Assembly (NCBI GenBank): GCA_019096065.1
Contig: JAGUCH010000005.1
Span: 1,488,001 to 1,552,000 of the forward strand
Source of the DNA: Paracyclopina nana
Taxonomy: Eukaryota; Arthropoda; Copepoda; Cyclopoida; Cyclopettidae
Direction of reading: 5' to 3'
DNA length: 64,000 nt
This document shows positions 1,015 to 55,537 of this stretch, one piece after another. How positions within the stretch are numbered: the stretch's first letter is position 1; each line of letters opens with the position of its first letter. The position numbers were made by a program, and so were the translations under genes. Under the pieces are notes generated by a model, which saw only the letters and a list, made by a program, of their open reading frames with translations, ran no database searches and had not been told where the DNA came from.

Positions 1015-1029
1015 CCCCACTAAGTGTTT
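1015..1029 (+). repeat. Left terminal inverted repeat of element A
   Basis: CCCCACTAAGTGTTT, preceded by AT (1013-1014). Its exact reverse complement lies at 8906-8920. Confidence 0.93.
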
Positions 1030-1045
1030 CGCGCTTAAGTGCAAT

Positions 1046-1398
1046 ACTGCTCCGGTACTGCTGCATCACTGTCGTCCAAAAATTGGAATAGCAGTATTTC
1101 TGAACGACTGCAGCAGTCATTATTTTTTTTTTCAAAAATAATTTTGAAATTTGAAAAACTGCTCCTGGACTGCACAGCAGTTAATTTTTTTCGTGGCAGA
1201 AATGTCTTGCTAAACATGTTTTTCAGCCATGCTTAATGGGTTGCCGTTATTATGTTCCTTATTGCTACTGCTAAACATGTTTTGCAGTATTTGAAGTAAC
1301 TGGTTGCACAGTATTTTGAAAAAAAACTGTCCTTATCATTTCTGCAATAATTTTTTTTGCTTAATATTTTGCGCGAGTTGCGTTTTGAAATGTGCAGT
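1046..1398. repeat. Subterminal ACTGC/GCAGT cluster, left end of element A
   Basis: I count about 11 copies of ACTGC or its complement GCAGT in about 350 bp, in both orientations and often as ACTGCT or AGCAGT. In plant CACTA elements such subterminal arrays bind the TNPA-type accessory protein; the same role here is an inference. The 14-mer AACATGTTTTGCAG near 1273 recurs near the right end (about 8720). Confidence 0.8.
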
Positions 1399-1487
1399 CG
1401 TTATTAAGACATTTTTTCATTTTTCCATTTTCAATATGATTAAAAAATTGATACAAGATTGTGACTCAAATAGTATGTTTTTATTAC

Positions 1488-4400
1488 TTAAACTATAAAT
1501 GTTTCATTAGGCACAGCCATGATAATGTCTTCACATATAACAGCCTTACATAAAACTGACTCATCACTGATAAAAACTGGATCTTCATTTTCACTTTCAG
1601 GTACGATTCGCTTAACCAGCACTTCTGACATGTCCAGATACATTGCCTCTGGATAAAACAATGGATGTGTCTTGATTTTCTCACCGTAATAGCCATTTTC
1701 TGCTGTGTCAACAATTAAGAAGAAACTGCCATCGTTTGTTGCCACTAAATTGTTGCATGCTCGTTTTGGTCCTTTATTTGCTGATATTTTGATGGAGTGG
1801 CCACACTGATGACGCTGCATGCGTGAAATAAAAGATTTGACCATCAATTGCTTAGCAAATGATAGTGTATTTGGCTTGATGATTCTCTTGACGAATGAAA
1901 AAAAACTTTCAAATAGCAATGCCGAGAAATTGCTTAGCATGCCTACATCACGAACTTCAAAGATGTGTGAAAAGGCATGAATGTTGAACACACACTCCCC
2001 TGCTCCATAGACTTTTTGGAACAGGTCATAGAATCTTTTTGACATTTCAAATGAGCGTTCGCTAGTCATTTTAGCTCTGAATATGCAGTCTGGCATCAGT
2101 GCCATTCTGACTATCCATGAAAACGTGAGCCACAACTTTCTTGTCTCTCTGTAAGCATCTCCCTGCAATGCCAAGTACATAGCATGAAATCCAACTGTTG
2201 CAACTGCCAAAAACTCAACAGCCTTATAATGGATGAATGTATCTGTGATTGGTCTTGGCCTTCGTTTGAACTCACTTGGCAAATCCATTTGCATCCAATA
2301 TTTGTCAAATCGTTGAGCAATCACTTTTCCCGCTTCACTCAATTTTTTGTCTGTTGGCCTAAATTCGAGAATGAACTTCAAAACAAGCCTGCAGACTCCC
2401 AAACTGACATTATGCATGGGGTCTACACAGAAGTCATTGATCATATCAAAATAGGGCAGTCGCAGTAATGGAGAATAGCCCTGAATTCCGTAGCGTTTTT
2501 TCTTTGGTAGGGCATTAGGATTGTCTTTTAGTTGCTCAGCAATTGTTCGCCATTCTTCCAAATTCCTAAGTTTGAAATTGATAGTGCTTGCAGGGTACGA
2601 CATTTTGTGCTTTCTTTTGTTGTACTTGCCAATCGCCAGGCACCTTTCACAACTGAAGTAGCCGTTATGTCCTACAACAGCCTTCAATTTCAATCGCATT
2701 GGTGTATCACCATTAAAGCGTCGCAGGCAAATACCAGTTCTTAAGCACTCGTCAATCACTCGATCAATTAGCGTGAGCATTTCTGTTGTTTTGCCTTTAC
2801 GGTAAATCTGTACTGCCATGGGGTACACTTCCTTGCAGTTGTCGAATTTTGTGCACAAAATGTTCATTTGTGCGTCACCACTCTTTGTAAGAGGAACGCC
2901 ATCAAAGAACAGATCGGCAAACTTGTGCTTCACTTGATCAGCAGTTTTTTTGATGTTCTCATATTCAAGATGAAATGCGTAGAGTTCGTCAATGGGCGTG
3001 TACGTCCACTCAGACATTAGTTTGTATCGAGGGCGCGGGAAACGTTTCCTTGGAAACTTTGTGCCAGAATAAATTTCAGTCTCATTGGTCTCCGTGTCCA
3101 AAAATTCATAAATCATCTTTATGTTTGGAACTCTACTTTCAAAACGCTTACGCATTGTTGGATAAGTAATAAGCGACTTTGTATCTAGGTGTGAAGCAAC
3201 AGCATGACCTTGAGCAGCCACTATAAAGTTCCACAAACATTCACAAGCAGTTTCTTCGAGCCCTAAAGCATTCACTACTGTCATGAACCTTAAGTAGAAC
3301 GCATCATCTCGCTCATTGCTAGTGAGAAGCATCCTGTCTTTTTCAAACTCCTCTTGAAACTGCTTGCGTGTCATGTTACGGAGGTGAATGTTTTTCTCAC
3401 TGCACACATTAACACTTTCACTTTCACCATCAATTTCATTGTCGTCGTAGTCTTCATTGCAATCAAAGTACTCGTCCTCTTCAGAGTCACTTGCTTCAAT
3501 GTCACTTGGAATGTTGTCGCAACTTTGCTGATCATCTGATGGGCGCCTATGCCTTCTTAATGTGAGCAACGACTCACTTTCAGCCTGGAAAAGATCAAGG
3601 AAGGGTTACGAATACATTTATATAGAGAAATAATTGGTGATAAGTTATACTTGTGCAATTTCATCGTTTTCAAGTTCATGTTGCCCATTAGCGGCATCAT
3701 TGTTGTTTTCCAAATTGATGTGCTCATTAGGAACTTCGTCATCTTCCGAGTCGGTCTCCTTTGATTGGCCGTTGTAATTGAAATCAGCATCGGCGACAAC
3801 AAAGTTAACTTGCTGAGCAACTGCGTCATTACTATCTTCGTCCAAATTGTTGATGGGTGAGTCAGACAAATTCACACTTTGCTGGCTGCTGTCATCCCCA
3901 GAATCATTGACAAATCTTCTCCTTAATAGCTCCTGCATATACATGGTGTCGACCACATCTTCATGTTCCTCTCCATCGTCAACTAAGTCATCATCACCCT
4001 CATCGTTTGAGAATATAAGTTGCTCCAGTGGTATTTCAATATCGTCAGGGTCAACAACTTTCCTAATCTTCCGTTGACGGAGATTTTCGATTATCTTCTC
4101 TCCAGGGAATAGCTCTTGCGTCTCATATACTTCAGTAGCTGCATTGGTGTTAGTGTCGTCATCGTCTGATTCGCCTTCCATGTCACTGTCGTCTCTTTGG
4201 GTCATACGCGACAAATGTAGAAGACGTCTGGTGTCCTCGTTTTTCTTTCTGAGTGTTTTCACTGCTGTGTAACTGTTTATTGCCTGCTTAAATTGTGGAA
4301 ACAGCTTGGTGAGGAGAGAATTTCTTATCGACATGTCATCGCTTTCGTCGTTTCCAGTCAAGTCGGCAATTTTCAAAGGCGCCGCCATTAAAGGGACCGC

Positions 4401-4664
4401 ATTTTTAACACCTGATGGACCCGGCATGGGACTGTAAAAAACATAGCAGTTGTGTTAATTACATTAATTGGATTTATCGTGTAAATTGACTTACTCAGAA
4501 ATTTCATCAAGTTCTCGTTGTCGCCGCATTTGCTCATGACGAGCTGTCGTTCGACGCACTTTTTCAGCCTCTAATTCGGCCTCCTTCTGTTTTTCTCGTT
4601 GGCGTCGTTTACGTTCGGCCGGGCCTTCATGTTTTAATGTTTTTTTCACTTTTTTAGGTCCCAT
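1488..4664 (-). CDS. CACTA/tnp2-like transposase of element A
   Basis: This is the predicted cut-and-paste transposase, about 1015 residues. Three exons: 4664-4495, 4431-3651 and 3584-1488 (phases 2 and 0). The N-terminal exon is basic and Arg/Lys/Glu-rich (starting MGPKK), exon 2 is strongly acidic, and exon 3 holds the catalytic part. Visible in exon 3 are FFDG (first candidate Asp, about residue 545), NGDTPMR (second Asp, about 610), a CxxC pair (FSCERC) and the diagnostic DPMHNVSLGV block of tnp2-type transposases (about residue 705). An AATAAA signal overlaps the stop region on the minus strand (1485-1480). An ATG 10 codons upstream (4694) is also possible. The element B transposase (52173-55054) has the same exon number and phases and aligns through the core. 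No disabling change is seen. Confidence 0.88.
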
Positions 4665-5074
4665 TTTGACGGCATCTTTCAGTCGCCAATTCAAAATGGC
4701 GTTGTTTGTTTATTTGTCGCAGTTGCTGTTTCAGTCTTCACGCAACCTTACCTGAAGGTGAAATGGGGAGACATTAAGTTATTTTTTGTCGTACGACGAA
4801 AATGTACTAATGCAAAACTTTGCAATTAATACAGCAATTATTAATTAATTACTATCATTTGCGAGTAATGAACAATATTAGCAATATTGCGTGTTCAGTA
4901 TTTATGTCATTAAAAAACTGCCGAGCAGTATTCCAAAATATTCCGCGCGCGGACAAGATTTAAATTTTCTCGCCAAACAGGTAGAGGTTAAAATAACCGT
5001 CGCCGAAACGAATCCGACAATTTTAAAAATTGATTTATCATCGAAAATCAAGGCAATCTCGAAGAATTGTGACC
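4665..5074. promoter_or_regulatory. Central divergent spacer of element A
   Basis: About 410 bp separate the two divergently oriented start codons. It is AT-rich and must hold both promoters or a shared one. No clear TATA box was identified. Element B has an equivalent spacer of about 435 bp. Confidence 0.6.
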
Positions 5075-8000
5075 ATGGATGTGCCGGCGGACTTGCCAAC
5101 GACTGTCTACGACCGAGTTTTGGTCATGTACTTGAACGAATCGCCGCCAATGACGCACTTGCCGATTACATGGAGGTCGCCTACTGGAAAGGCCCTCTCT
5201 GAGATCGTCAACTTTGATCCCACCCAAGCCCTGACGAACTCTCAACGAAGGAAAACCTTCAAGTACCAGGAGGCTGGATCCGATTGGAGAGAATTCTCCA
5301 TTTTTGCTCGAGTGGAGCAAGGTGAGCAAAAAATTGACGGTTTACTGATAACAAAATGTTAACGCTCTAATGCTAACTTTAGGAATGCCGGTAACGAGGA
5401 TCCAATCGATAACGCAGGAGTTGAACAGGAATTTCAGCGGGAAGCGTGATGCTGGCGACAGACTGGCCATTAAGATGGATTTGATCCAAAACTACTGCGA
5501 AAAAGGCCATGGCTTATTGGAATTATCCTAAGCGACAGTTAAATGGCAACTTCATCTTCAGCAAATGGGATGGAGCGTCGACCAGGTCAAAAAGCAGGAA
5601 AAACTTGCCGAAAACTGACGGGAGCCAAGAGGAGGGCGAAAATGCTTCTTCGGGCGACGAATTCCAGGATGAGGCCGCACAATTGTTGAAGAAGAAAGAA
5701 AAAACTCCATCTTCTGCTGGTAAAAGGCGGGCATCAACTTCTGGTCCATCAACATCTGGGACTGCGCCACCAAAGAAGCAAGCCAAAAAGTCCGACCAGA
5801 TTCCTGAAGCGAGGACAAAGGTCTTCAAAAGCCCAGCCAAGGGGAAAGGAGTTGGCAAGAAGAGTGCGGCTGCCAAAAATTTGGATAAGTCTCTTGGGAG
5901 TCAACCAGCAGGAAGGTCGACGCGCGGCTCTACAAAGACCCAGCCACAAAAGAACGCCGCCACCGCCAAAAAGGATGACGCGCCAGCAGCAACGACTGAC
6001 ACGCCCACTCATTCCGATATTGGTGAACAGGAAGACACCACCGCCGAGCTGGTAGACCTCACTCTTGGCAGCAATTCATCTGGCAATGCTAGTGATGATA
6101 AAAATGCAGAAGTACTGCAAAAAGTAATAATCATTTTTAAATCTAACATTCGCATTTACTTCAGGAAAAGGTCGAATTGATTGTGCCAGTCAAGCCGTGG
6201 ACTCCAGAGGACGAGGCTAAGGCTAAGCCATTTGCAGATATGACCGAGGACGAGAAGAATGAGGCAATGCTGCAGTTGAAAAGCAAGATTCAACAACTGG
6301 AGCAGGAGACGCTATTGAAGAAAGTCATCATGGAAGTATATGTCCATGAGATCGCTCCACGATTTGACAGCATTGACAAACGCCTTGATGAATTCATCAA
6401 TGTCACCTATAAGAACGACATTGCTGAGCTGAGAGCAAAGCCAAATGGACGTGAGGTATGTTTATTTACATGTAACTTTGCTATATGATCGTACCAATAA
6501 TGTGTCGTCATTTCTTTGATTACAGAGGACGCTTGCTATATGCAAGGAGATTAAGTCACGGCTTGATCACTTCACCAGTGAGACCTCAAAGATCAGGCAA
6601 GACTTTGAAGACGCCGTGACCACGTCAAATGATGCTCGCTCACGTGCAATTGGAATTATTAGCCGCCCTCTCCCTTGGGACTTGATGGGAAAGGGCATGG
6701 ATGTGTACTTTGCTAACTTGCTAGTACAAGATTTGCTCGTTGGTGTCATCCTGCCGTTTTTCAATGGTGTCGTCAATGCTTACGACCACTATATAGCAAA
6801 AGCGGTGATCACCAAAATCTTCACACCTGTCGCAATGGCTCATCTTGTCTTCAAACATTCCAACAAGTAAGTGTGAATTGATTTATGGCGACAAGTGCTA
6901 CTAGACTGACGTTTATGTGTTGCAGTCTTGATAAGGTCGCATTCCAAAGGAGGACCATCCCAAACAATTTGATGAGGATGCTGGAATTTAAATTGTGTCC
7001 TCGTTTGAAGGACTTGAGGAGAATCGGACCTGACGAAGTCTTTGAAAACATGCAGATCGTGAGAGATAAACTCTCATTAGGAATGACGAATGCAAGGACT
7101 TCATTCATTCGCCGTGGCTTGCGTCGCACCAATAATGCTGATGAGGCGGTGTCGGCAATGTATGAAATTGCTCTGGATATGTATGGCGAAAATGCTGTAA
7201 GTACAATACTTGAAAGTAACGACAGTATAGTTGGTATTGCATTGTTAACGCAATGTTAACAATTTTAGCATGAAGTGGACCAGCGGGTGAAGCCAGATAC
7301 CCTTGAGGTGTTCACCGAGAAATTGAAGTCGCGCAGTGAATATCGCACTGCTCTCAAAGCCATGAATAGCAAGAAGGATGGCGATAGCGACAATACTGAC
7401 AGTGATGACGAGGAGAACAAGGGAGCCGTCAGTGGTGTAGCAATCTACGATTGCGATAGAGGGCCGCATCCTGGTCGAATTTGGAGCGTCGAAGATGTCA
7501 TCAAACTGATAATTGCAGCGGGCCACACCTTGGGCAAAAATGTTTTCGAACTAGAGTATGAACCAGTGCCTTGTGTTCCGAACGTAAGTAACATACTTCT
7601 TGACCTGTTATGCCTCGCTGCATGCTGAAAAGTACTTTCAAATTTACAGCTTAATGCGCTGCATAAGTCTATTTGCAAAAAGTACGAGAACAATCTGGAT
7701 GATCTCATCAATGAATTTGCCGGGTTCATTGGCGTAGGCACTCCTGGTACAGCTATGGATCAACCGGCTCCAGCACCAAGACCTTTTCAACCAAGCCCTA
7801 GGAAATTTCCAATTGAGTACGCTGGAGCGTTTGCCAATCCAAGAGAGGTAATTTATTGCTCACACATTTCTTAATTACATGTTAATTACTTTTTGGTACC
7901 GCCCACTTCTCACAATCAGATTGAGGATGCCGACAAAGAGACAACAGAAGAGGAGAAGAGTGGTGAAGTGCAGACATCCAAAGAGATGACCACTACTGAT

Positions 8001-8463
8001 GACAACAGTGCTGAGCAATCAGACACCAGTTCCTTGCACATCCTTGAACGGGGTGGAATCCTGGATAGCGGCGAACTCACTCCTGAATCCGAAATTGCAC
8101 AAGCAGCTCCTAAGCAACCTTTTGATAAGCCAATTCCGCCTGTAAGCCCATAACATTACTTTTTCAGTTATCCTACAATACTAACACAACATTTCTTGTG
8201 ATTGCTAGGACGCTGAAGGTGTCACTGATGCTGATGTGCAGAAGGCGTTGATGGAAGCGGCTGGTCCTTCATCTGGTACGCTGGCTGATGCCAAATCTGT
8301 TGAGGCAATGCGCCAACAGCTTGTTTATGAGGCCATGCAGAAGAGACTTGAAAAGGAGACTCGTGACTTGAGAGAGTTTGATGAAATGATGCGTCGTAAG
8401 CGGGAAATTGAAAAAGAGCTGGAAGACCTGAAGAAGAGGCAGCAGCAACAGCAAGAAAATTAA
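5075..8463 (+). CDS. Second (accessory) protein gene of element A, with an apparent frameshift
   Basis: I do not recognise this family. Nine exons can be traced: 5075-5321, 5383-6123, 6165-6455, 6526-6866, 6926-7196, 7269-7583, 7650-7847, 7920-8141 and 8209-8463. The product would be about 959 residues if read through one shift. Order of regions: a conserved N-terminal block (TVYDRVLVMYLNE), a Lys/Ser/Ala-rich basic linker, a conserved central block (LPWDLMGKGMDV to VAMAHLVFKH), an acidic stretch, and a C-terminal coiled coil ending in a Gln run. It is homologous along its length to 51737-48305 of element B; exons 4 and 5 (341 and 271 nt) match two element B exons in length. The frame breaks at a run of five A (5500-5504): the upstream frame stops shortly after, while the downstream frame (from 5509) continues the homology. 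This may be a real lesion, an assembly error or frameshifting. AATAAA lies at 8556. A TNPA-like DNA-binding role is inferred from position only. Confidence 0.8.
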
Positions 8464-8611
8464 CAGCCATTATGCATTAATGAAGCAGAAAATTATAACT
8501 TATAGCTTTTCATTTCTTATAATATGATAACATACAGTACCTAGAATGCACAAGGAATAAAAAAAGGCCGCAAGGCCAAAAAAACGAATAATGACTACCA
8601 TTTGCGGCAAT

Positions 8612-8847
8612 ACTGCTGAATCAATTTATTTGGTCTTATAAACATACTGCACAGCAAATGCTCAACAATTTAAGCAGTTTTTTGCAGAATACTGCCAACA
8701 ATTAAAAAAAATACTGCATAACATGTTTTGCAGTCATTTAAAAAACTTCTAATCAAAATTCCAAAAAACTGCTGGGCCACTGAACGTACCACTGAAATGT
8801 CACATTTTTGTTACAATGGGCAGTCTTGCAACAGTGGCACGAGCAGT
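8612..8847. repeat. Subterminal ACTGC/GCAGT cluster, right end of element A
   Basis: About nine ACTGC or GCAGT copies in about 235 bp, mirroring the left end cluster. They include a second copy of AACATGTTTTGCAG. Confidence 0.8.
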
Positions 8848-8905
8848 ATTTTGGAGTCAAAAACAAAAACTGATCGACCCCTGCACACCGACTGATGGGC
8901 AATCT

Positions 8906-8920
8906 AAACACTTAGTGGGG
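8906..8920 (-). repeat. Right terminal inverted repeat of element A
   Basis: AAACACTTAGTGGGG, the exact reverse complement of 1015-1029, followed by AT (8921-8922), the second copy of the putative target duplication. Confidence 0.93.
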
Positions 8921-40900: not shown

Positions 40901-42757
40901 TCAGTCATCTAGACGTTCCAGTTTCACAATCCAAACGCCAGATTTGGGCCTAGGCAGAACATGAAACACTTTGTCTTTGATTTCTTCATATCTGGAGCAC
41001 TTGTGAACCCTGAACTTGGTGCAGGAAGTGTAGCCACATTTGACACACTTTTCCTTCGGCAGTCCTCGTTTCTGCTCTGAAAGCCTCACGTGCCTTTTGA
41101 AGTTTTGCTGCAAAGGAGTGTAGTAATGGCAAAAGTCACACATGAAAATTTGCCTTTGCACTGATGAGATCAGAGTTGTGCTGCCCAACATGGGCATTTT
41201 GGGCACTTCTTCATCTTCTTCTGCTTTCTCTTCTTCTATTGGGGCTTTTTCCACTCTTGGCTGTCTTTCGGCATCTTTGCGATGTCCCGTCTTGTGCCTG
41301 AACAGGAGATTGAATGTGCATGACAGAAAGTCACACTGGTCGCACTTTTTCGCACTGGATCCATGTTTGACTCGCGCCTTAATATGAGTGTTTAGCTCCT
41401 GTTGGGTGATGGTTTTGTAATTGCAAAATTTGCAGAAAAACCTGTAATTCTTCCCTGACGTCGTCAGTGTTTTGGTGTCAGAAATTGTTATTTTGGAGAT
41501 GTCATCATCATCGTCAACTACCTCTTTTTCAAGCACTGGCATTTCATTATCTTCACACTCTTCTTGCTCATTTTGATGATGTAGATTTTTGTGGCTGCGC
41601 AGGAGATCGTTTGTGCATGCCAAAAAGTCACACTGGTCGCACTTTTTCAAGCTGGATCCATCGCTGATTCTCTCATTGGAATGGAGCTTTTGCTCCTCTG
41701 GAGTCGTGCTCTCGTAATTGCAAAATTGGCAGAAAAAATGGAAGCTGGTATCAGAAGAAACCGTTGGTTTGCTTTCCAAAATTGATATTTTTGGCATGTT
41801 TTCATCAAGCACTGGCTCTCCTGGCATTTTTTTAATTTTCAGCACACTTACGATTTTCGGCCCTTTTTGCCCGTTTTTGTGATGTATCGTCTTGTGAGTG
41901 TACAAGAGTTTAAATGTGCATGAGGCAAAGTCACACTGGTCGCACTTTTTCACACTGGACCCATCTCTGACTCGCCACTTGGAATGGAGATTTTGCTCAC
42001 GTTGGGTCATGGTTATGTAGTTGCAAAATTGGCAAAAAAACCTGATGGGCGATGTCAGTGTTTTGCTTTCCAAAATGGCCTTTTTTGGCTCATTTGCCTC
42101 AATGAGCTCTTCCTTGGGCTCTTCTGGGCTTTTCGACTTTTTTGGCCCTGCAGCCAAATGTGGCTCTTTTTCCCCATTTTTGCCACGATTTTCGTGATGA
42201 TGCCTATTTTTGTGTCTATAAAGCAAGTTGTTTGTGCATGACAAAAAGTCACACTGGTCGCACTTTTTGGCAGTGGACCCATCACTGATTCTCCCTCTGG
42301 AATGGACTTTTTGCTCCTGCAGTGTGATGCTCTTGTAGCTGCAAAACTGGCAGAAAAACTTGTAGTTTTTCTCATGCACTTGCTTTCTGTGCGAGTCTAA
42401 GCTCGAATTGACCCCTTTATGGCTACACAGCCCGCAAGAGCCCACTCTGTACCGAAAGGGAATGGGCCCACAACTTTTCTGATGCTTGCTTAAAGCTGCA
42501 GCTGATCTGAAAGGCTCTTGGCATTCATAGCAGCAATTATGCCTGATCACTTTGTGCCCCAACAAATTGCCCTTGGTGCGAAATTCGCACATGTCGCACT
42601 TTTTCACTTCATGGTGCTCCTCAAAATGGTCCAATTGTTCATTTTTGCACTTGAACTTGAGGCTGCACTGAATGCACGTGAAAAAGGCTTTCTTTGCTTG
42701 TCCTCCTTTGCCTCCACGCAATTTCTTGTATTTCTCCACAATTTTGGCTGTTGCCAT
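40901..42757 (-). CDS. C2H2 zinc-finger protein with four long tandem repeats
   Basis: Single exon, 618 residues. After N-terminal fingers (residues 28-130) come four copies of a unit of about 55 residues at 134-188, 239-293, 340-394 and 439-492, separated by acidic or Lys/Pro-rich linkers. Each unit is a half-finger (FFCQFCNY... with CxxC and one His but no second His) followed by a regular finger (KKCDQCDFxxCT...HKxxHH). A last irregular pair (540-590) and a conserved tail (VLPRPKSGVWIVKL) follow. Probably a nuclear DNA-binding protein; the family is not recognised. It lies inside a rols intron on the opposite strand, next to a small paralog (40512-40114). Confidence 0.85.
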   Translation of the reverse strand: MATAKIVEKYKKLRGGKGGQAKKAFFTCIQCSLKFKCKNEQLDHFEEHHEVKKCDMCEFRTKGNLLGHKVIRHNCCYECQEPFRSAAALSKHQKSCGPIPFRYRVGSCGLCSHKGVNSSLDSHRKQVHEKNYKFFCQFCSYKSITLQEQKVHSRGRISDGSTAKKCDQCDFLSCTNNLLYRHKNRHHHENRGKNGEKEPHLAAGPKKSKSPEEPKEELIEANEPKKAILESKTLTSPIRFFCQFCNYITMTQREQNLHSKWRVRDGSSVKKCDQCDFASCTFKLLYTHKTIHHKNGQKGPKIVSVLKIKKMPGEPVLDENMPKISILESKPTVSSDTSFHFFCQFCNYESTTPEEQKLHSNERISDGSSLKKCDQCDFLACTNDLLRSHKNLHHQNEQEECEDNEMPVLEKEVVDDDDDISKITISDTKTLTTSGKNYRFFCKFCNYKTITQQELNTHIKARVKHGSSAKKCDQCDFLSCTFNLLFRHKTGHRKDAERQPRVEKAPIEEEKAEEDEEVPKMPMLGSTTLISSVQRQIFMCDFCHYYTPLQQNFKRHVRLSEQKRGLPKEKCVKCGYTSCTKFRVHKCSRYEEIKDKVFHVLPRPKSGVWIVKLERLDD

Positions 42758-44313
42758 GTTTTTGTTTTGATTCTCACTGAGCTACCGAGGGGAGAGCATC
42801 ATCAGCTGTTGAAAGGACACATGGCAATTGACAGCGCCACCACGTGGCCAAAAGTGGCATTTTCAATATTAATTTTCCGATAAACGCATACAATTTCTAA
42901 GGCTAGTCGTTTTCATGTATGACAATGTGGAAAAGAGACTGAAATTCAATTTTTTGGGCCATAGTGACAATTTCACGAGCTTTTTTCATATCCAAGTATT
43001 AATAGGAAAAAACAGCCCACAGCGAACTGGTTTTTTTCCGTTTGGTGGCAACTGTAGAAAAAAGTGATTTCAATATCCCGCTGGGTGGACAAGTGATCGA
43101 TTTTCACCACTGTGTTGCTATTCAAGGCAATTCATCTTTTCAGTGGAGAAAAACCCGGGTAGAAACCCCGAGGGCGTCCGAAGAACCTAGTTAAAATTGA
43201 GAGTAACACACTTGAACCGCTCGGTTTCATATTCTGAGGATACTAAAAATACTTTGCTTTGCTTACAGAAAGTTGTCTTGGTTATATAAGCTCAAATTGA
43301 CGTGGGTTGCTTGGATAAATTTGTGATTGAGCCCGACCCCTTTTTTTGCTCGGGACACCTCGTGATCAGCTTCAAATTGGCATTTTGCCTTTTTTGTCCC
43401 AGGTCGTGCCCGCCACCTTAAAATACCAATTTTTGCTTCCAAAAATGCCAAGCATTAATTATCATCCTTGTTCACACCTTTGCAATATTTTTCTTTTAAA
43501 AATAATGGATGAATTTTAAAAGAAAATGAAAGTTGAGCATAACTGCCCGTAGTTTTGCGCAGTCATAATTTTTGCCATATGGTCAAATGTTCTTTTCATT
43601 GAGCTGAGAGACAAACTTTTTTAAGCTGGGCTAATGAAGTCATTTTCCCTTGGCAAATTTCGGAAATGATTCACATTTTAATTTTCTCAGGAAATGTGGC
43701 ATTTCCTGTCATTAGCAAAAAGAGTAACCTTTTCGCTTGGTTAAGAGCAAGAATTTCCCTTCGCAGAAAAAGGAATAAGAAGGGGTTGAAATAATGCTCA
43801 CGACTCAACTTAACAAGGTATAGAGAAGAAGCAGCTCTTTGTGGGTCAATAGAAATTCCAACAATGACCAGAAATGTGAGTGTCATGCTTGATTTTTCAC
43901 ACTTTGCCAAAAAGTGAGCATAAAATTCCTCCCTTTGGAGGTTTTCCCATAAAAAGTCTGATTTATGGCATTCAAATGTCTGGCTGATGATGATCATTTT
44001 TGCAAAAAGTCCAATAAATATCCTATGTAAGCTAGAATATCTCCCCCCTTGCTTTCCCGCTCCAATTACCCAACTCTTTCTTATATTATATTCAAAGTAG
44101 ACATTTTTGGTGTAGCTTTGCTGCGATAAGGGTGAAGTGTGTCCATCTTGATGTGTCTTTTGTCAAACCCTTCCTGGGATAATCCACGATTTTCATTCAT
44201 GCTCACGAAACCGCATGATTAACATCGCATTATTATTCGTTTATTTACCGAGATTATTATTTACTTCAAGCAAAGGAGTTTCTCTCTTAAATATCATGCG
44301 CTCGATTTAGCAT
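42758..44313. other. Intronic sequence of rols without a gene
   Basis: Spacer between the minus-strand zinc-finger and phosphatase genes. No supportable feature was found. Confidence 0.45.
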
Positions 44314-47676: not shown

Positions 47677-47696
47677 CCCAGCGAACCCCTTTTTCG
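47677..47696 (+). repeat. Left TIR of element B
   Basis: CCCAGCGAACCCCTTTTTCG, preceded by CA. Confidence 0.93.
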
Positions 47697-47699
47697 TTT

Positions 47700-48000
47700 C
47701 AAAGTTGAAAAAAATTCGATTCGAAATTGATGGAAAGTTTTTTTCCGAACGCGTTTGTTATTATTGTTTTGGTAACACGGAAGTTGAACTAAAATCGATG
47801 AAATATCAATTTCGGAAATCGATTCCAAAACTGATGAAAATTGTTATCAAAATTGATAATTCCACATCGCTACTACTTCTTTTAAACATGTTCCAAACAC
47901 ATTTCTTTTCAGGAAAAACCGATGTTGAAAAGTGATTTGGAAACCGACGGCCTTAACCTTGGAAACCACAAAAAATCGTTGGGAAACCGATTGAAAACGC
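47700..48000. repeat. Subterminal motif cluster, left end of element B
   Basis: Repeated GGAAACCGA/GGAAACC and AAATCGAT-type motifs, for example around 47791, 47816, 47938 and 47978, in an A-rich setting. These differ wholly from the ACTGC motif of element A. Confidence 0.65.
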
Positions 48001-48304
48001 TTGGAACGTGCTAGGCCTTTGTGTGGCCTTGCTGAAACGCCTGTGCTACGTTTTTTAACGAATTGGAAATGAATTCAACAATTGTCATGAACACATAGCT
48101 TTTATTTCACCGTGAAAGGATCGCTGCAAGTGCATGCGCCTAAACTTTTTAATAAATGTTTCTTAAAAATGGAAATATGTTTGGAAAATATTATATACAT
48201 AGAGACATACATAAATTTGCTTCAAGCTCGCAATGAAGGCTTTTGGGCAGAGCCGGCAACTGAGACAATTAATGTCTATTACGAAACTTGATTGGAGTTT
48301 TCTT

Positions 48305-51300
48305 TTACTTAAGAAATGGTTTCCTTTCTTCAGGTGTCTTCTTTTCTTGCTCCGCCCTGATACGTTCGAAATGGCGACGCAAACGTTCTTCAATTTGCTC
48401 GTTAGTCATGCCGGCAAAAGGATCGGAAACAACATAGGGATCATTTGGTTTCTGAAAAGAAGTGTAAGTGTGAAGTACTTGCAAATGCGTTTAAGAAAAA
48501 ATGAGAAATGTTTATGCTTTCGTTAAATGTGCTTCAATTTTCGTAAGAATGCTTCGCTGAGCGTGTTTAAAAGTTTGCGTTATGCGTTTTAAAGCAGCAA
48601 TGTTAATTGTTGTAAAAGCGTTCGGACTTACAGGGGGCATAGGCCTAGTTTGGCCTTGTGGAGCTTGAGGTTGAGGAACTTGAGGCGTTTTGGCACTTGT
48701 CGAAGGCATTTCTTGCTGTGAAGTAACAAGCTGCTTCACTCCCGATGGAAGAGTCTTGACGCCAGTGTACCATGCATGCTTTTCAGCCGTCTCCCCACTG
48801 GTTTTGGCAACCGACTCCCTCAACTGGCTGCTGCACATTGGTTCGCCACTATCCTCATCGGAGCCGTGGCTCTCAATGTTCTTCTCCAATTCGGAAGGAC
48901 TTTCGACATCAGGGGAGTCTTTCTTCTCCTTGGCTTCCGGAATGTCCTCAGTGGACTCATCAGATTGGCTCTCACCCAAGTTGGAGATGTCAGCGTTGAG
49001 GCGGTCTTGCTCCTCGTTCTCACTGTCGGAACGTGTTCGGGGAGTTGGCAATTGGGTGTCCACTGGGAATTGCTTCAAAAGAGCATCCAAATCGCTGATG
49101 TGGTCATCTAAGACTCGCTTGTAGATGTTTCGGATCTGAAATGTTAATTTAATGATCACAACAAAGCCGCTTATTGACATCGGAATGAATTTGAACTTAC
49201 ATCGGGAAAGTTTTTTGGTTGATCAAATGTAAGTTTGGTGACATCCAAACCATCAGCCCTGGCAGCAGCCAAAATGCCTTGCATTACCTCATAGGGACTG
49301 AAAACCTTTTCGGACTTCTTTGGACCACGCATTCCATCAAACAGGTCGTCTGGCTCACTGAAGCTCTTGCCTAGCGCTGCCTTATCCTGGTAGTCGTTGA
49401 AAGCTTTTTTGCATTCGCTTCGGGCGTCCATAAGCTTTCTCTTGTAGACATCCCTGTCCTCCATAACAGCTGTTGGAGGGATGGCATGCTGGAAATAAAG
49501 TGCGTAAGGTCATTATTACAAAAAATTGATTTCAATAAATGCAGTTGCCAAATAACTTTAAAACGTGAAAAAGAAATTTTGGCACTTACAGCGTTGTGAA
49601 TGTAATACTCATTGTCAGAGTTGTGAAGGGCATCCAGGGCAGCATCAGGCGTGGAAGCATCTTCGAAAGCAAGCTCGAGTTGCTTCGTCCTTGCATTGGC
49701 GAAACGTCTAGCCATGACTTTCTTAACGCCTTCAAAGTTCCCAACGAATGTTTCATTGCCAAGCTTAAGTTGTGCACGGACGTAGGGAATAATGTCCGAC
49801 TGAATCATCTTTTGGAAGGCACTGGGAACTTTACGTTTGTAGTAAAGAACCTTATCAGGACTACAAGTGGACGTAAATATAGTGTTTTTGAAAAGCCTTT
49901 CAAAAAAATAAAGCTATCAAAAGCAAAACTTACTTCTTAGGATGACGCCACACGAGATGAGCCATTGCAATCCTCGTCAGAAAGACATTTGTGAAGGCAA
50001 AAGCAATCCGAACATTTACATGTCCTTTCTGGGAAGCGAGTTCGTCCTTAATAAGAGCGACTACTTTTGATTGCACGTAGTGCGAAGACATGAACACGTC
50101 GAAGCCGAATCCCATCTTGTCGAAAGGCAAGAAACGGCCCAAAATGCCTGATGACCTCGACTCCTTCTCAGCGGCATTGTCGGAAACTTTTCCAATTTCG
50201 TTCCTAATGCGGACTTGCTCAATCGAAAAATCCTCAATTGTCGTCTTTGTTGACATGATCGCTTCCAAAATTTTCTGAAAGGAAAAGTTCAGACAGTTTT
50301 AAATTCCGAATGCGATGCGATCAAGCAAATGAAACTTACAGCAACACTGTTCTTGGTGGCCTTATTTCCAAGGATGTCAATCACTTTTGCAACCTCAGTG
50401 ATAATGGCGTCATGAAGGGCATCTTGGATGTCAGCCAATTTTTGGTCAAGGACTTCCTCCAGAACTTGGCGAATGATAGCCTTCAAATTTGCGTTGCTCG
50501 TCGGTTGCCTTTCTTCCAAATTTGTTAGGAAAGCGCTCAACTTTGCATCCAATTGCTCCTCACTGATGAGGATGGCCTCTGAGTAAGTCGGAACCTCCTA
50601 AAAAAGGTATCAGAATTGGACTTTTGATTCGTTCACAATTACTTATTAATGAGTTTAGTAATTACCATTCTTGGCACCTCCACATTGTAGACGACTTCCT
50701 TGGCAGAAGCCAACGCAGCGGCCGCAGCAGCAGCATCCATTTCATCTTGTGAAGCTGTTCCGCTCGGCGTGGAAGTGTCCTTAGCAGGTCTCTTGGTTGG
50801 AGACGGCGTGATGGTGTCGCTGTCGGACTCCGAAACATGCATGAGACGTTTCCTTCCTGGGGTCTCCTTCTTCTTTTCCAATGCTTCGGAAGATGTTTGG
50901 GATGAGCCCAACTGCGAAGACAATTCCAGCTTGCCAGTGAAGCCGCTTGTCCTTGCGCTCTTTGGCGTGAAGAATGGATTCTGCAAAAAAATTCCAGACT
51001 TCTTTGTAAAAAATTGCGAAGTTAAACTGTTCGCAAGGAAAAATAATTTGTACTTACCGCTCCCTCAACAGACTGAGTGCTCTCAGATGAGCTCGAGATC
51101 GATTTTTTGGCGGCGCGCTTGCCAACCTTGGCAGGATTAAATTCCTCCTCAGATTCAGGGTCGGTCGTTGAAGGCAAAGTTTCTTGGCCGCGCTTCCTTG
51201 TTCCAACCTGATTCCAACGTTGATAGGTTATCTTGTTGGTGATCTCGTCCCGTTCCGTGTAGGTCCAGCCGGCCATCATCTTTTCGCCCCAATTCTTCAG

Positions 51301-51737
51301 CAGCGATGCCTTAAGTCCAGATTTTTGGGGATACGAAAGCGATTTGAATCTTGCGTTCAAATCATCCAAAAGGCTCGTAAGCCTTGCTTGATCGGTCCCT
51401 GAAATTAGCATTGGGTCAAAATTGACTTGGAAATTGTTCGTAAACCAATATTACCTCGCTCGACACGGCAGAAAATGGACATTGCCTTGGTAGGCTCCGT
51501 CTCATCGATGAGAAAGTTGTGGACCTTTGCCCGTTGAGCCAAAGTCATCTTTCTTGACGGATTGAAGCTCGAAACGACTTCAGTTACCGTTTGCATGTCG
51601 GCGTAGACATGATCCGTCGGCATCCACAAGACGGGCTTCTCATCCTTGAGGCAAATCATGACGAGGCGGTCGTACACGGTCCCTGGCGTGTCCGGAGGGG
51701 TTTCGTCCAATGTTTGGGTCTTCTTTTTGGGGCCCAT
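48305..51737 (-). CDS. Second (accessory) protein gene of element B, intact
   Basis: I do not recognise this family. Nine exons (51737-51455, 51398-51058, 50980-50666, 50597-50340, 50274-49934, 49860-49590, 49488-49201, 49135-48632, 48451-48305) give an unbroken 915-residue protein. It has a conserved N-terminal block (TVYDRLVMICLKDE), a Ser/Lys-rich linker with an alanine run, a conserved central block (LPFDKMGFGFDVF to IAMAHLVWRH), a Glu/Ser/Asp-rich region, and a short charged C-terminal helix. It is homologous to 5075-8463 of element A; two adjacent exons (341 and 271 nt) have exactly the same lengths and phases. Sited opposite the transposase, as TNPA is to TNPD in plant En/Spm, it may bind the subterminal motifs; this is inference. 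A polyadenylation signal lies at 48106-48101. An upstream ATG at 51779 is an alternative start. Confidence 0.85.
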
Positions 51738-52172
51738 GTCGTCGTTTCTTCGGAAATTCGTCGGATTAAATCGATACAATTCGATTAAGATGGTTTTCTT
51801 CCGCGTCGGTTTTAACTACGTTTCGTTTGGCGAACTTTTTTAATGACTAGCAATTTTTAATATGGGCCGCTTTGGCTAATTTGGCAGCGCGGGGCAGCAA
51901 GGGGCGGCAGATCAAATTTGGCGTCACTTTTCATCAAATTCGGGGCGATAAGAAAAACTTGATGAAAAAAATTAAAAATTTCCAAATTGATTCTGAAATG
52001 ATTAAATCTTCGAAATATTTTATAAGAAATGAAAAAAATAATTATTTACCGACATTCAATTTTGGTTTTTTTTTTAGACGCCCCTGGCAACAACGTGAAT
52101 AACAGTATCGTCAGCGGCCATTCAATAAGACGACAACAATTTTCGCTGCGTCATTTTTGAAAATCATTTAAA
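51738..52172. promoter_or_regulatory. Central divergent spacer of element B
   Basis: About 435 bp between the head-to-head start codons, AT-rich, and presumed to hold both promoters. No firm TATA box was chosen. Confidence 0.6.
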
Positions 52173-55054
52173 ATGAAAAAGAAGAAGCAGCAATCCAAGG
52201 CTGAAATAGCCGCAAAGCAGGCACGCTATCGAATAAGAGCAAAGGAGGCGCAAAGAAAATTGCGTATGATGCAATACCGATGTGCTGCGAGAGTGCGACT
52301 CCTTCAGCAAGCTCAAGGTGTTGACGAGGAATTGTAAGTTGCCCTTTATTTTTCCAAACATGTCTATTACTAATACATGGTCATTAGATTGCGCGATGAG
52401 GCTCTGTATGGCGAGCACCTCAACGACTGCTGCCCATTCAATGACAGAGATCCTGAACTTGTTAACGAATGCATTGAGAAACTTCGGAACAGTTCCTCTT
52501 GTACAAGCGCTGAAAATGAAGACACTGACGACGAAGATGTCGAGCAGTCACTAAGTGCTGACGGAAATGATTTGAAACGCAACAGGAAGCTCATTCAGGA
52601 AAACCTCAAGCGGAAGCTAGAGGCCGTCGGAGATATATCGCCAAACGCAGAAACTCCAGACTTCCTTGGCGAAGACATTGACTATGGCAATACTCTGGAA
52701 GGACCAACGCAAGAAGAGCTAGAGGAGATGGCTTCCAAGAAACCGAAGTTGTTGCAAAATCAATTCGATCATGAGCAGCCATCAACATCAAGAGCTGCGC
52801 TCGCAAATGATGTCTCAAATGTTCTTAATGAGTCGAGTGATGGCAGCATTATTTTTGATAATGGGTCTCAAAGCAGTTCCGAAGGCGACAAGTCATGCTC
52901 CGAGATTTACGACGATAAACTTCCGATTCATTTTGGTCCGGAGAATCTTGATTTCAAGGAAAATCAACGTTCAGACACAGAATCCGATAATAACCCTGAT
53001 TGTGATGGTGAACCTGTAAGTTTTCTTAACGATACTTTAGGATTCGTATTAATGTACAAACTTATTTGTAGGTGGCAATTCAAGAAATGATTAACATGCC
53101 CAACAACGAGCCGGAAGATGTTTTCTATGACGCTGTGGAAGAGTTTGAAGAAGATGGCAACGATGACCCCAGAGAAGACAATGCTCTTCTTCTACATGGA
53201 ACGAATTTGAGCGATTTCAAAGAAGCGATTGAAAAAGAGTCTCAACTGCCAACAGTAAAGGAGAGGAATCACTCCTTATATGCTCGATTCTTTTTCTTGG
53301 CGTCCATTTTGGCAGTGACTGATCGAGCAGCCAAAGCATTTTGGAATTTTGCTCGAAGTTTGACAGATCGCACGTTGCTATCATTTAAGGCAATCAAGAA
53401 GCGTTTCGAAAAAGTTATTCCGCCAGTCAATATGACGTATGAGTTTCTGGACACTGTAACAAAGAAGACGCATCAGTATCAGGGGTCAAGTTTCCCAAGA
53501 TCAAAATTTCCAAGGCCGCGATACATCCTACTTTGCGAATGGTCGACGGTCGAAATGACTGAATTGCACAAATTCTTCTTAAGTGTGCATCCGAATGGGT
53601 TCAAAAGCGACTTCAAAGGAAAAAAATACGTTGACCTCTTTGTGGATGGAGTCCCTTTGGCAAAATCTTCGGATGCGTTAATGAATGTGTTATGCGCAAG
53701 GTTTCTGCCATGCAGGAAGGTGTGGCCAGTCGCAATACATATCTACCGGAAAGGACAAACAACGGACATTGTTGACTTGTGCAGCCGTACGTTGCAAGAG
53801 TGTTTAGACAACAATTTCATTGTGCGAAAATTTATTGGCGACAGTCCCATGCGAGCGAAGATGAAGTGCTTAAAACAGCATAACGGTTACTGCAGTTGCG
53901 AGTGGTGCTATTGTGTTGGAAGGTATTTGAAAAGCGAACGAAAAATGGCATTTGATTCGGCATCTATGAACTATCGTCGGCGAACGCATGCTGAATGGCT
54001 GGATATTGTTTCAAAAATCGAACGCAACCCACAAGGAATCGCTGAAAAAGACAGATTTGGCATTAAGGGCTCATCGCCTCTACTTCAGCTGAGCAATTTT
54101 GATATTATTCGAGACTTTGTGCCCGACCCAATGCATAATATTGGACTTGGAGTCGGTCGGGCGCTGCTTGGCTTAATTTTTGAAGTGAACAATGCCAAAG
54201 AGATCACGAGCGCAGCTGGCAAAGAAATTGCAAAATCGTTCGACAAGTTGTGGTTGGCGACAAGTATTCCACAGGAATTCCCACGTGCACCAAGGGCAAT
54301 CCTAAACAATTTGAAGCATCTGAAAGCAAGTGAAATATTGGCTATAATATGCTGCGGCTTCACGCACTTGTACACAGCTATGAAGCCGTTCCTATCAGCA
54401 TCAATCATCAAGACTTGGTTGTACTTCTGCTTTATCGTCCATGCTGCACTCTTACCTGATCCAATCTTTGAGCAAATAATGCCAGAATCAGTCGGTTTCC
54501 GAAAGCAACGGGAATTCTACCGGTTATACGAGAGGAATTTTGGTGTGAAAAATTGCACCTTCAATTTGCACACCTTCTCCCACCTCTTTGAGATTCGCCG
54601 AATTGGAGCCTTGAGTGATTTCAGCGCAATGCCTTTCGAAAGTTATTTCTCGTACCTTAAGAAAATTATTAAGCCATACACCTTGAGCTTCGCTAAACAG
54701 TGCTTGATAAAATCATTCATTTCAAATATGAATGACCACAGCTGCGGATACCAAGTGTGTGTGAAAACCGGTGGGAGGAAACGTACTGTGAACAACATCA
54801 TTTGTACTAAAGATGGTTTGTTTTACTTCGTTTTCGACACTGATGGCGACAAATACTACAAATGCAATCAAATCTTCACCAAAAAGTTCTATACTCCTGA
54901 GGCACCGGAACTTGATTGGGATGAAGTATACGTCAAAGTTATGGATAAGGTCGACAATGAAGATGTCCTTGTACTGAAGAAAAAGGTACTTTGCAAAGTC
55001 ATTTTGGCGGACAAGGTGCTCATCTCCGTGCCAAATGACGTTTATTACACGTAA
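52173..55054 (+). CDS. CACTA/tnp2-like transposase of element B
   Basis: Three exons, 52173-52333, 52388-53015 and 53072-55054, give 923 residues. The exon phases are those of the element A transposase. The first exon is basic (MKKKKQQSKAEIAAKQARYR) and the second is Glu/Asp/Ser-rich. The third holds the catalytic core: VDLFVDGVPL with the first candidate Asp, IGDSPMRAKMK with the second, a CxxC pair (SCEWC) and the tnp2 signature PDPMHNIGLGVG. Function: excision and insertion of the element by DDE chemistry. No stop or shift interrupts it. AATAAA lies at 55155. The catalytic Glu cannot be fixed without an alignment. Confidence 0.9.
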
Positions 55055-55249
55055 TGCAAAAAATGTGTTTCGAACTTATGATGTAAGCAGCAACTGCAAA
55101 GTTCGTTGTGTCAATACATGTTTGTCCTTGTAAAGTTTCCATTCAATTCTGAAAAATAAATGATTACATGTTATTTGAGTTTTCATGTTTGCAATTAATG
55201 ATTTTTTGTTGAATGAGTTCGGAAAAAAATTACTAAGAAATATCTATTT

Positions 55250-55510
55250 TCTTCAATTTTGATCGATTTCGAATAACGATTTTGGAAGAAATCAATAATA
55301 AACTAATGGAACGGCTGTCACTTTTCAAACAGTTTTGAAAAATCGTTTGAAAAAAGTTCCACATCAGATTTCATCTACTGCTGCAAACGAATTCCAAAAA
55401 ATTTGAAAAAAACCCATTTCAAATTCGTTTGCAAACACGTTTCGATAAGAAAACTGATAAAAATCGATAAAACATGATATTTAACAAAAAATCAGGAAAC
55501 CGATATCGTA
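55250..55510. repeat. Subterminal motif cluster, right end of element B
   Basis: Contains ATCGATTTCG, AAAATCG, AAAATCGATAAA and GGAAACCGAT copies echoing the left end cluster. Confidence 0.6.
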
Positions 55511-55518
55511 AACTATTT

Positions 55519-55537
55519 CGAAAAGGGGTTCGCTGGG
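55519..55537 (-). repeat. Right TIR of element B
   Basis: CGAAAAGGGGTTCGCTGGG, the inverted match to the left TIR with one T fewer, followed by CA. Confidence 0.93.

Follow-up and report, generated by a model that had tools for sequence, protein, structure and literature searches.

We asked what is encoded by a gene of the copepod Paracyclopina nana that lies back to back with a transposase gene, and whether it belongs to the host or to a mobile element. The window, i.e. the whole stretch of DNA that was analysed, covers 64,000 nucleotides (contig JAGUCH010000005.1, positions 1,488,001 to 1,552,000) and carries two such genes, here referred to as accessory genes A and B. A preliminary description of the window had regarded their products as a conserved accessory protein and suggested a TNPA-like DNA binder or regulator, an interpretation that as a whole is partly supported by our data. 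Specifically, the element is a CMC cut-and-paste transposon whose ends are of the TRC type (animal CACTA), a narrower definition than before, and the gene is the second one that it encodes. By analogy with the plant CACTA elements, the protein would work like TNPA, as a helper that recognises the element ends, and we give this reading a probability of roughly 0.55. The element that carries gene B is organised as follows (coordinates refer to the window):

47677-55537: complete TRC-like CMC element B, 7861 bp, with 17-bp inverted repeats CCCAGCGAACCCCTTTT at both ends and flanks CA / CA
47677-47693, plus strand: left terminal inverted repeat, exact pattern match at C5:1535677-1535693
47694-48304: left subterminal region with repeated CGATTTCGAA- and GGAAACCGAT-like motifs
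48305-51737, minus strand: accessory gene B, nine exons, 915 aa, open spliced model
51737-51455, 51398-51058, 50980-50666, 50597-50340 and 50274-49934, minus strand: gene B exons 1-5 (283, 341, 315, 258 and 341 nt)
49860-49590, 49488-49201, 49135-48632 and 48451-48305, minus strand: gene B exons 6-9 (271, 288, 504 and 147 nt)
51455-51737, minus strand: exon 1 of gene B, the conserved N-terminal block (approximately residues 14-95; alignments A2 and A7)
49590-50274, minus strand: exons 5-6 of gene B with their intron, the conserved central block (LPFD...IAMAHLVW...NARTK; alignments A1 and A6)
51738-52172: 435-bp gap between the divergent genes, candidate shared promoter
52173-55054, plus strand: transposase gene B, with a basic exon 1 (52173-52333), a middle acidic exon and a catalytic exon ending at 55054
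55055-55520: right subterminal region with CGATTTCGAA- and GGAAACCGAT-like motifs
55521-55537, minus strand: right terminal inverted repeat, exact pattern match at C5:1543521-1543537

All introns of gene B are of the GT..AG type and the frame of the spliced model runs uninterrupted from ATG to stop over 915 codons. By eye, protein B has low-complexity linkers that are Ser/Ala-rich, acidic or basic, and a basic KKK stretch at its N-terminus. Judged from its position, the gap between the two genes is likely the promoter of both. For the transposase, the open frame of the catalytic exon is 53072-55054; the donor of exon 1 was checked, and exon edges were modelled for exon 1 only.

The second element of the window has the same layout in the opposite orientation:

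1015-8920: complete TRC-like element A, 7906 bp, with inverted repeats CCCCACTAAGTGTTT and an AT / AT duplication
1030-1487: subterminal region with the GCAGTATT-like motif
1488-3605, minus strand: catalytic part of transposase A, 705 aa open frame, 42% identical to B, all signature residues kept
5075-8463, plus strand: accessory gene A, homologue of gene B, nine exons, frame break near 5508
5075-5321, 5383-6123, 6165-6455, 6526-6866 and 6926-7196, plus strand: gene A exons 1-5 (247, 741, 291, 341 and 271 nt)
7269-7583, 7650-7847, 7920-8141 and 8209-8463, plus strand: gene A exons 6-9 (315, 198, 222 and 255 nt)
8464-8905: other subterminal region, with the GCAGTATT-like motif repeated on both strands

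That the two accessory proteins are homologous, as had been claimed, holds for nearly their whole length. Gene A aligned to a profile of the B-type copies over residues 12-761 of 915 with a score of 432, whereas 20 letter shuffles scored no higher than 70 and the opposite strand 55. The nine-exon structure said to be common to both stands as a count, nine exons each, and not as a one-to-one correspondence, since gene A lacks an intron in the region of the second exon but has an additional intron towards its end. The two exons of identical length (341 and 271 nt) are indeed equivalently placed, being exons 4 and 5 in gene A and exons 5 and 6 in gene B. All gene A introns are GT..AG. Overlooked in the earlier reading was a break of the reading frame in exon 2 of gene A, near 5508 and next to a short run of A; the remaining exons are each open, the terminal stop excepted, and the break may reflect a broken copy or an assembly error.

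The ends of these elements were compared with those of copies elsewhere in the assembly (92 Mb, 10 contigs). This assembly has 80 matches to cuticle proteins of arthropod type, in agreement with an arthropod host; a nematode host was rejected, with 0 matches to nematode cuticle collagens, in a search whose controls matched nowhere either, and no exact SL1. Among the 11 elements with both ends read, i.e. excluding E5, for which the left end was not found, all inverted repeats start with CCC, and the flanks match over 2 bp in 11/11 and over 3 bp in 0/11, which gives a 2-bp target-site duplication (of the two left repeats of E4, which have identical flanks, we took the inner one). Both characteristics mark the TRC group of animal CACTA elements according to the accounts in PMC1636069 and PMC4298943. 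The B-type repeat has 35 exact matches in the genome, those at window positions 47677 and 55537 included, and the reversed control has none. At two places (C1:4514557-4515987 and C4:7519880-7521240), B-type repeats face each other across only some 1.4 kb, and these pairs are probably non-autonomous derivatives.

The partner enzyme was assigned to the CMC superfamily by its predicted signature residues. As outlined in PMC12730594, the CMC transposase signature consists of D, D, C(2)C, H(3-4)H and E in this order; in the last exon, D192, D257, C276, C279, H500, H504 and E523 are invariant in all 13 aligned transposases, their catalytic roles being assigned by position, and E507 is likewise invariant. 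The transposases of A and of L039 (with L042) are 35-41% identical to that of B. With respect to the TRC group, the CxxC mark is present, and the [LVI]-D-x-[LM]-H-x3-L-G motif is complete in A (VDPMHNVSLG), while B reads DPMHNIGLG with P before D; in L039 and L041, E replaces the D of D-x-M-H-x3-L-G. Two other TRC marks were not found. In most TRCs, motif I has W-P 12-14 residues after D-G (as summarised in PMC1636069), compared with 25 residues in B (DG 192-193, WPV 218), and A has no WP. Moreover, the Pfam family Transposase_21 had no match in transposases B, A, L039 and L041. We therefore refer to the elements as TRC-like. A genome search with PF02992 gave 0 matches, and its controls matched nowhere either. 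An RNase H-like fold is a mark of CMC transposases; the AlphaFold model of the catalytic exon is too poor to read a fold from (mean pLDDT 34). Searches of viral contigs gave no relatives of the accessory protein or of the transposase, and searches of plasmids none of the transposase.

Is the accessory gene a regular component of such elements? The preliminary description had placed it beside CMC transposases; it lies inside the inverted repeats, and the divergent pairing recurs. In 12/12 elements first examined (ten retrieved elements, E11 in part, and element A of the window, the retrieved ones having been chosen as closest to B) the gene is divergent from the transposase. Genome-wide, and among the matches listed, an accessory match is present at most 7 kb upstream on the opposite strand at 63/89 transposase loci, as against 0/89 upstream on the same strand and 3/89 downstream, so the search for the same gene beside other CMC transposases, proposed earlier, was successful, and the association is with transposases rather than with an unrelated host family. 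With a single transposase query the count among the matches listed was 52/65 paired, where about 0.23 would be expected by chance (63-67 candidates were scored per transposase query). At 26/89 transposase loci there is no accessory match among the matches listed; one of the 26 was read, and the gene is there, over approximately 770 residues (score 183; the 12 letter shuffles reached no more than 36 and the other strand 32). Conversely, 32/95 accessory loci have no transposase among the matches listed, and this number had been 43 before two transposase queries were added, through which 11 loci gained one.

Direct support for joint movement comes from E3 on contig C3 and E11 on contig C7. The two copies share 99.5% identity over 8066 bp, a stretch bounded exactly by the two inverted repeats, and they occupy separate sites, where the 2-bp duplications differ (AT and TC); hence in this pair of copies the accessory gene travelled within the element. 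The E11 transposase frame is interrupted.

To evaluate the idea that the protein has a function kept by selection, we compared copies pairwise, and the conserved blocks were found to be under purifying selection: across eight informative pairs, residues 1-200 have a pN/pS of 0.15-0.35 and residues 316-700 one of 0.11-0.29, as against 0.43-0.76 in the linker (201-315) and the C-terminal part (701-915). Since the conserved blocks are almost saturated at synonymous sites (pS 0.67-0.88), no meaning attaches to the exact ratios. Two further near-identical pairs were uninformative. Introns after residues 95, 513, 603 and 699 are common to all 11 B-type copies, A and L042. In spliced alignments, stops were present in 0/11 B-type copies and frame shifts in 5/11 (E4, E5, E7, E10 and E11); the aligner can dodge stops by adding introns in variable stretches, and the absence of stops is therefore weak evidence of intactness. 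A relative, L040 (349-2244, minus strand), has a 631-aa open frame, keeps only the introns after residues 95 and 699 of the four, and has no transposase among the matches listed; it is possibly a stand-alone or domesticated gene.

Consistent with the earlier statement that no domain could be named, Pfam and PDB-profile scans gave no fitting family for the accessory protein, nor did the Rfam search return a usable match, and no DNA-binding domain was found in these searches. For the N-terminal profile, a Thioredoxin match (E 0.008) was dismissed because it is short, at 29 columns, and partial; single-member Pfam matches such as DUF7602 (E 0.0018, 1/8 members) were dismissed because the other members lack them. 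A BEN- or DUF4806-like reading of the central block has no support in Pfam. Specifically, PF16064 (DUF4806) had no match at E ≤10 in eight A1 members, six A6 members and L040, in a search where the HMMER filters drop most weak matches; the genome search with PF16064 gave 0 matches with an uninformative control. The AlphaFold model of accessory exon 5 (mean pLDDT 49), which places a long helix ahead of the central block, is too poor to interpret. Elsewhere in the window, a 626-aa frame (40901-42781, minus strand) has repeated weak C2H2-like zinc-finger modules (KKCDQCDF) with Pfam matches that are all below the cut-off.

What the protein might act upon is suggested by the element ends. We counted 10-mers with at most two mismatches in the regions of about 0.5 kb inside the inverted repeats, and in 8/10 elements a 10-mer recurs in both regions above every one of 40 shuffles. 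Interior stretches, compared with shuffles of the end regions, exceeded this null in 0/10 elements, and the motifs are several times denser at the element ends than in the interior. In E3 and E4 the subterminal repeats are not above the shuffles. The values of k were chosen by us (k=10 with two mismatches or k=8 with one); with the latter 7/10 elements are above the null, where the palindromic motif of E7 and E8 was counted on both strands, and E8 otherwise equals the null maximum. For element B, the count at k=10 is 16 compared with a null maximum of 12, while at k=8 the two are merely equal (8 and 8). Exact 7-mers exceeded the shuffle maximum in only 1/8 elements; exact counting was too blunt, and mismatch counting was used instead. 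The motif varies by element, being GGAAACTGAT in E2, AACGAGTTTC in E6, AACTCGTTTC in E7, CAAACGCGTT in E8, CAAAGTCGAT in E10 and GCAGTATT-like in A.

Repeats of this kind resemble the plant CACTA ends that are bound by TNPA, and for this reason a TNPA-like role is proposed. TNPA recognises variable subterminal repeats and is needed along with TNPD, according to PMC2613891 and PMC1636069. By analogy, the accessory protein would bind the element-specific short repeats in the regions of about 0.5 kb inside the inverted repeats, bring both element ends together and recruit the transposase to the paired ends; it may also damp the shared promoter. We infer the DNA binding, the contact with the transposase and the need for the protein in transposition, and likewise the link from protein to repeats, which the transposase itself could read. 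Against the TNPA-like role we counted that no DNA-binding domain was found in Pfam and PDB-profile scans, that the structure models are unusable, that the repeats of E3 and E4 are not above the shuffles and those of B only equal them at k=8, that the transposase has a basic exon of its own, that plant TNPA shares the transposase transcription unit and has little similarity to TNP1, unlike the conserved protein here, that among the matches listed 26/89 transposase loci are unpaired and 32/95 accessory loci have no transposase, and that the frame is broken in copy A and shifted in 5/11 B-type copies. As to that basic exon, exon 1 of transposase B (52173-52333) encodes a strongly basic segment that could bind DNA itself.

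The divergent genes around a short gap, together with the Ser/Ala-rich, acidic and basic low-complexity linkers, would also suit a regulator encoded by the element, with the shared promoter as its target, or a factor that counteracts host silencing; in either case the protein would stand outside the complex that cuts and joins DNA. In plants, according to PMC1636069, reactivation or repression of the promoter is a further activity of TNPA. We give this reading about one chance in four. Against it stand the motifs, which lie within the two ends and are several times as dense there as in the interior, and the persistence of the gene in lineages (L039 with L042, and A) whose transposases are only 35-41% identical to B, which suggests a core function. 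Rather improbable, though still ahead of a host origin, is a structural partner of the transposase, one that does not bind specific DNA sequences and serves instead in assembly, stability, nuclear import or the choice of target. That no DNA-binding domain was found, the long helix predicted before the central block in the low-confidence model and the basic N-terminal KKK stretch agree with such a partner; the subterminal repeats, however, would then be unexplained unless the transposase reads them. Finally, capture of a host gene by a few elements, or chance proximity of a host family to transposases, would account for the 32/95 accessory loci without a transposase among the matches listed and for L040 with its fewer introns and no transposase among the matches listed, but is highly improbable given the fixed divergent arrangement at 63/89 loci among the matches listed, the intron positions common to B-type copies, A and L042, and the transposases gained at 11 of 43 loci after two added queries, a chance neighbour being very unlikely from the pairing counts.

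How do the elements, with a TNPA-like helper as the favoured reading of their second gene, relate to known systems? The TRCs described in PMC1636069 (SmTRC1 of Schistosoma and those of Aedes and Tribolium) share the CCC inverted repeats and the 2-bp duplication, and their transposases have DG, CxxC and the D-x-M-H-x3-L-G motif, the last of which is complete here in A and in all but its first position in B. In Aedes, where the element measures 9.2 kb according to the same account, the repeat is CCCAGTCAAC, similar to CCCAGCGAAC in the present elements. In contrast, the available text of PMC1636069 describes no separate divergent second gene in TRCs, and the extra proteins of SmTRC1 are there attributed to alternative splicing, with those portions not detectably conserved; the present elements differ further in having no Pfam Transposase_21 match and another motif I spacing. 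Spongebob_HMa / EnSpm-4N1_HM is also alike, with inverted repeat CCCAGCCAACATTGAC and a 2-bp duplication, and was called TRC by its authors; it differs in that, in the available text of PMC4298943, the exact transposase was not found and no second gene is reported. The plant CACTA proteins TNPA (En/Spm) and TNP1 (Tam1) are similar in being a second element protein beside a CMC transposase, in elements with variable repeats inside both ends, but as presented in PMC2613891 they derive from the transposase transcription unit and have little mutual similarity. Here the second gene is separate, divergent and recognisable across lineages, and the likeness to TNPA lies in the set-up and in the proposed function.

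TNPA-like helpers are already known as a kind, and the difference here is a separate divergent gene, in an animal, that is recognisable beside transposases only 35-41% identical to that of B. Among the papers searched, no title or abstract describes a divergent second gene in an animal CACTA element, and it may be recorded in Repbase. More tentatively, and with the odds somewhat against it, TRC-like elements might be obligate two-gene systems, in which a protein family of no recognised fold was inherited with the transposase before the split of lineages that are now about one-third identical, and in which DNA specificity changes with the fast-evolving subterminal repeats to give each element family a private end-recognition code. 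Descriptions of animal CACTA elements, in the parts of the literature covered here, centre on the transposase. A conserved partner with its own transcript would help to explain their large size, would warn annotators against counting the gene among those of the host, and would give cell-based tests of such elements a second component to include. Moreover, many natural pairs of protein and end repeats would provide a test of how transposon families stay apart in one genome. Apart from single copies, head-to-tail element arrays were observed at C2:2564909, 2573220 and 2581511 (period of about 8.3 kb) and at C8:4369491 and 4376093 (about 6.6 kb), which are the result of tandem amplification or an assembly artefact.
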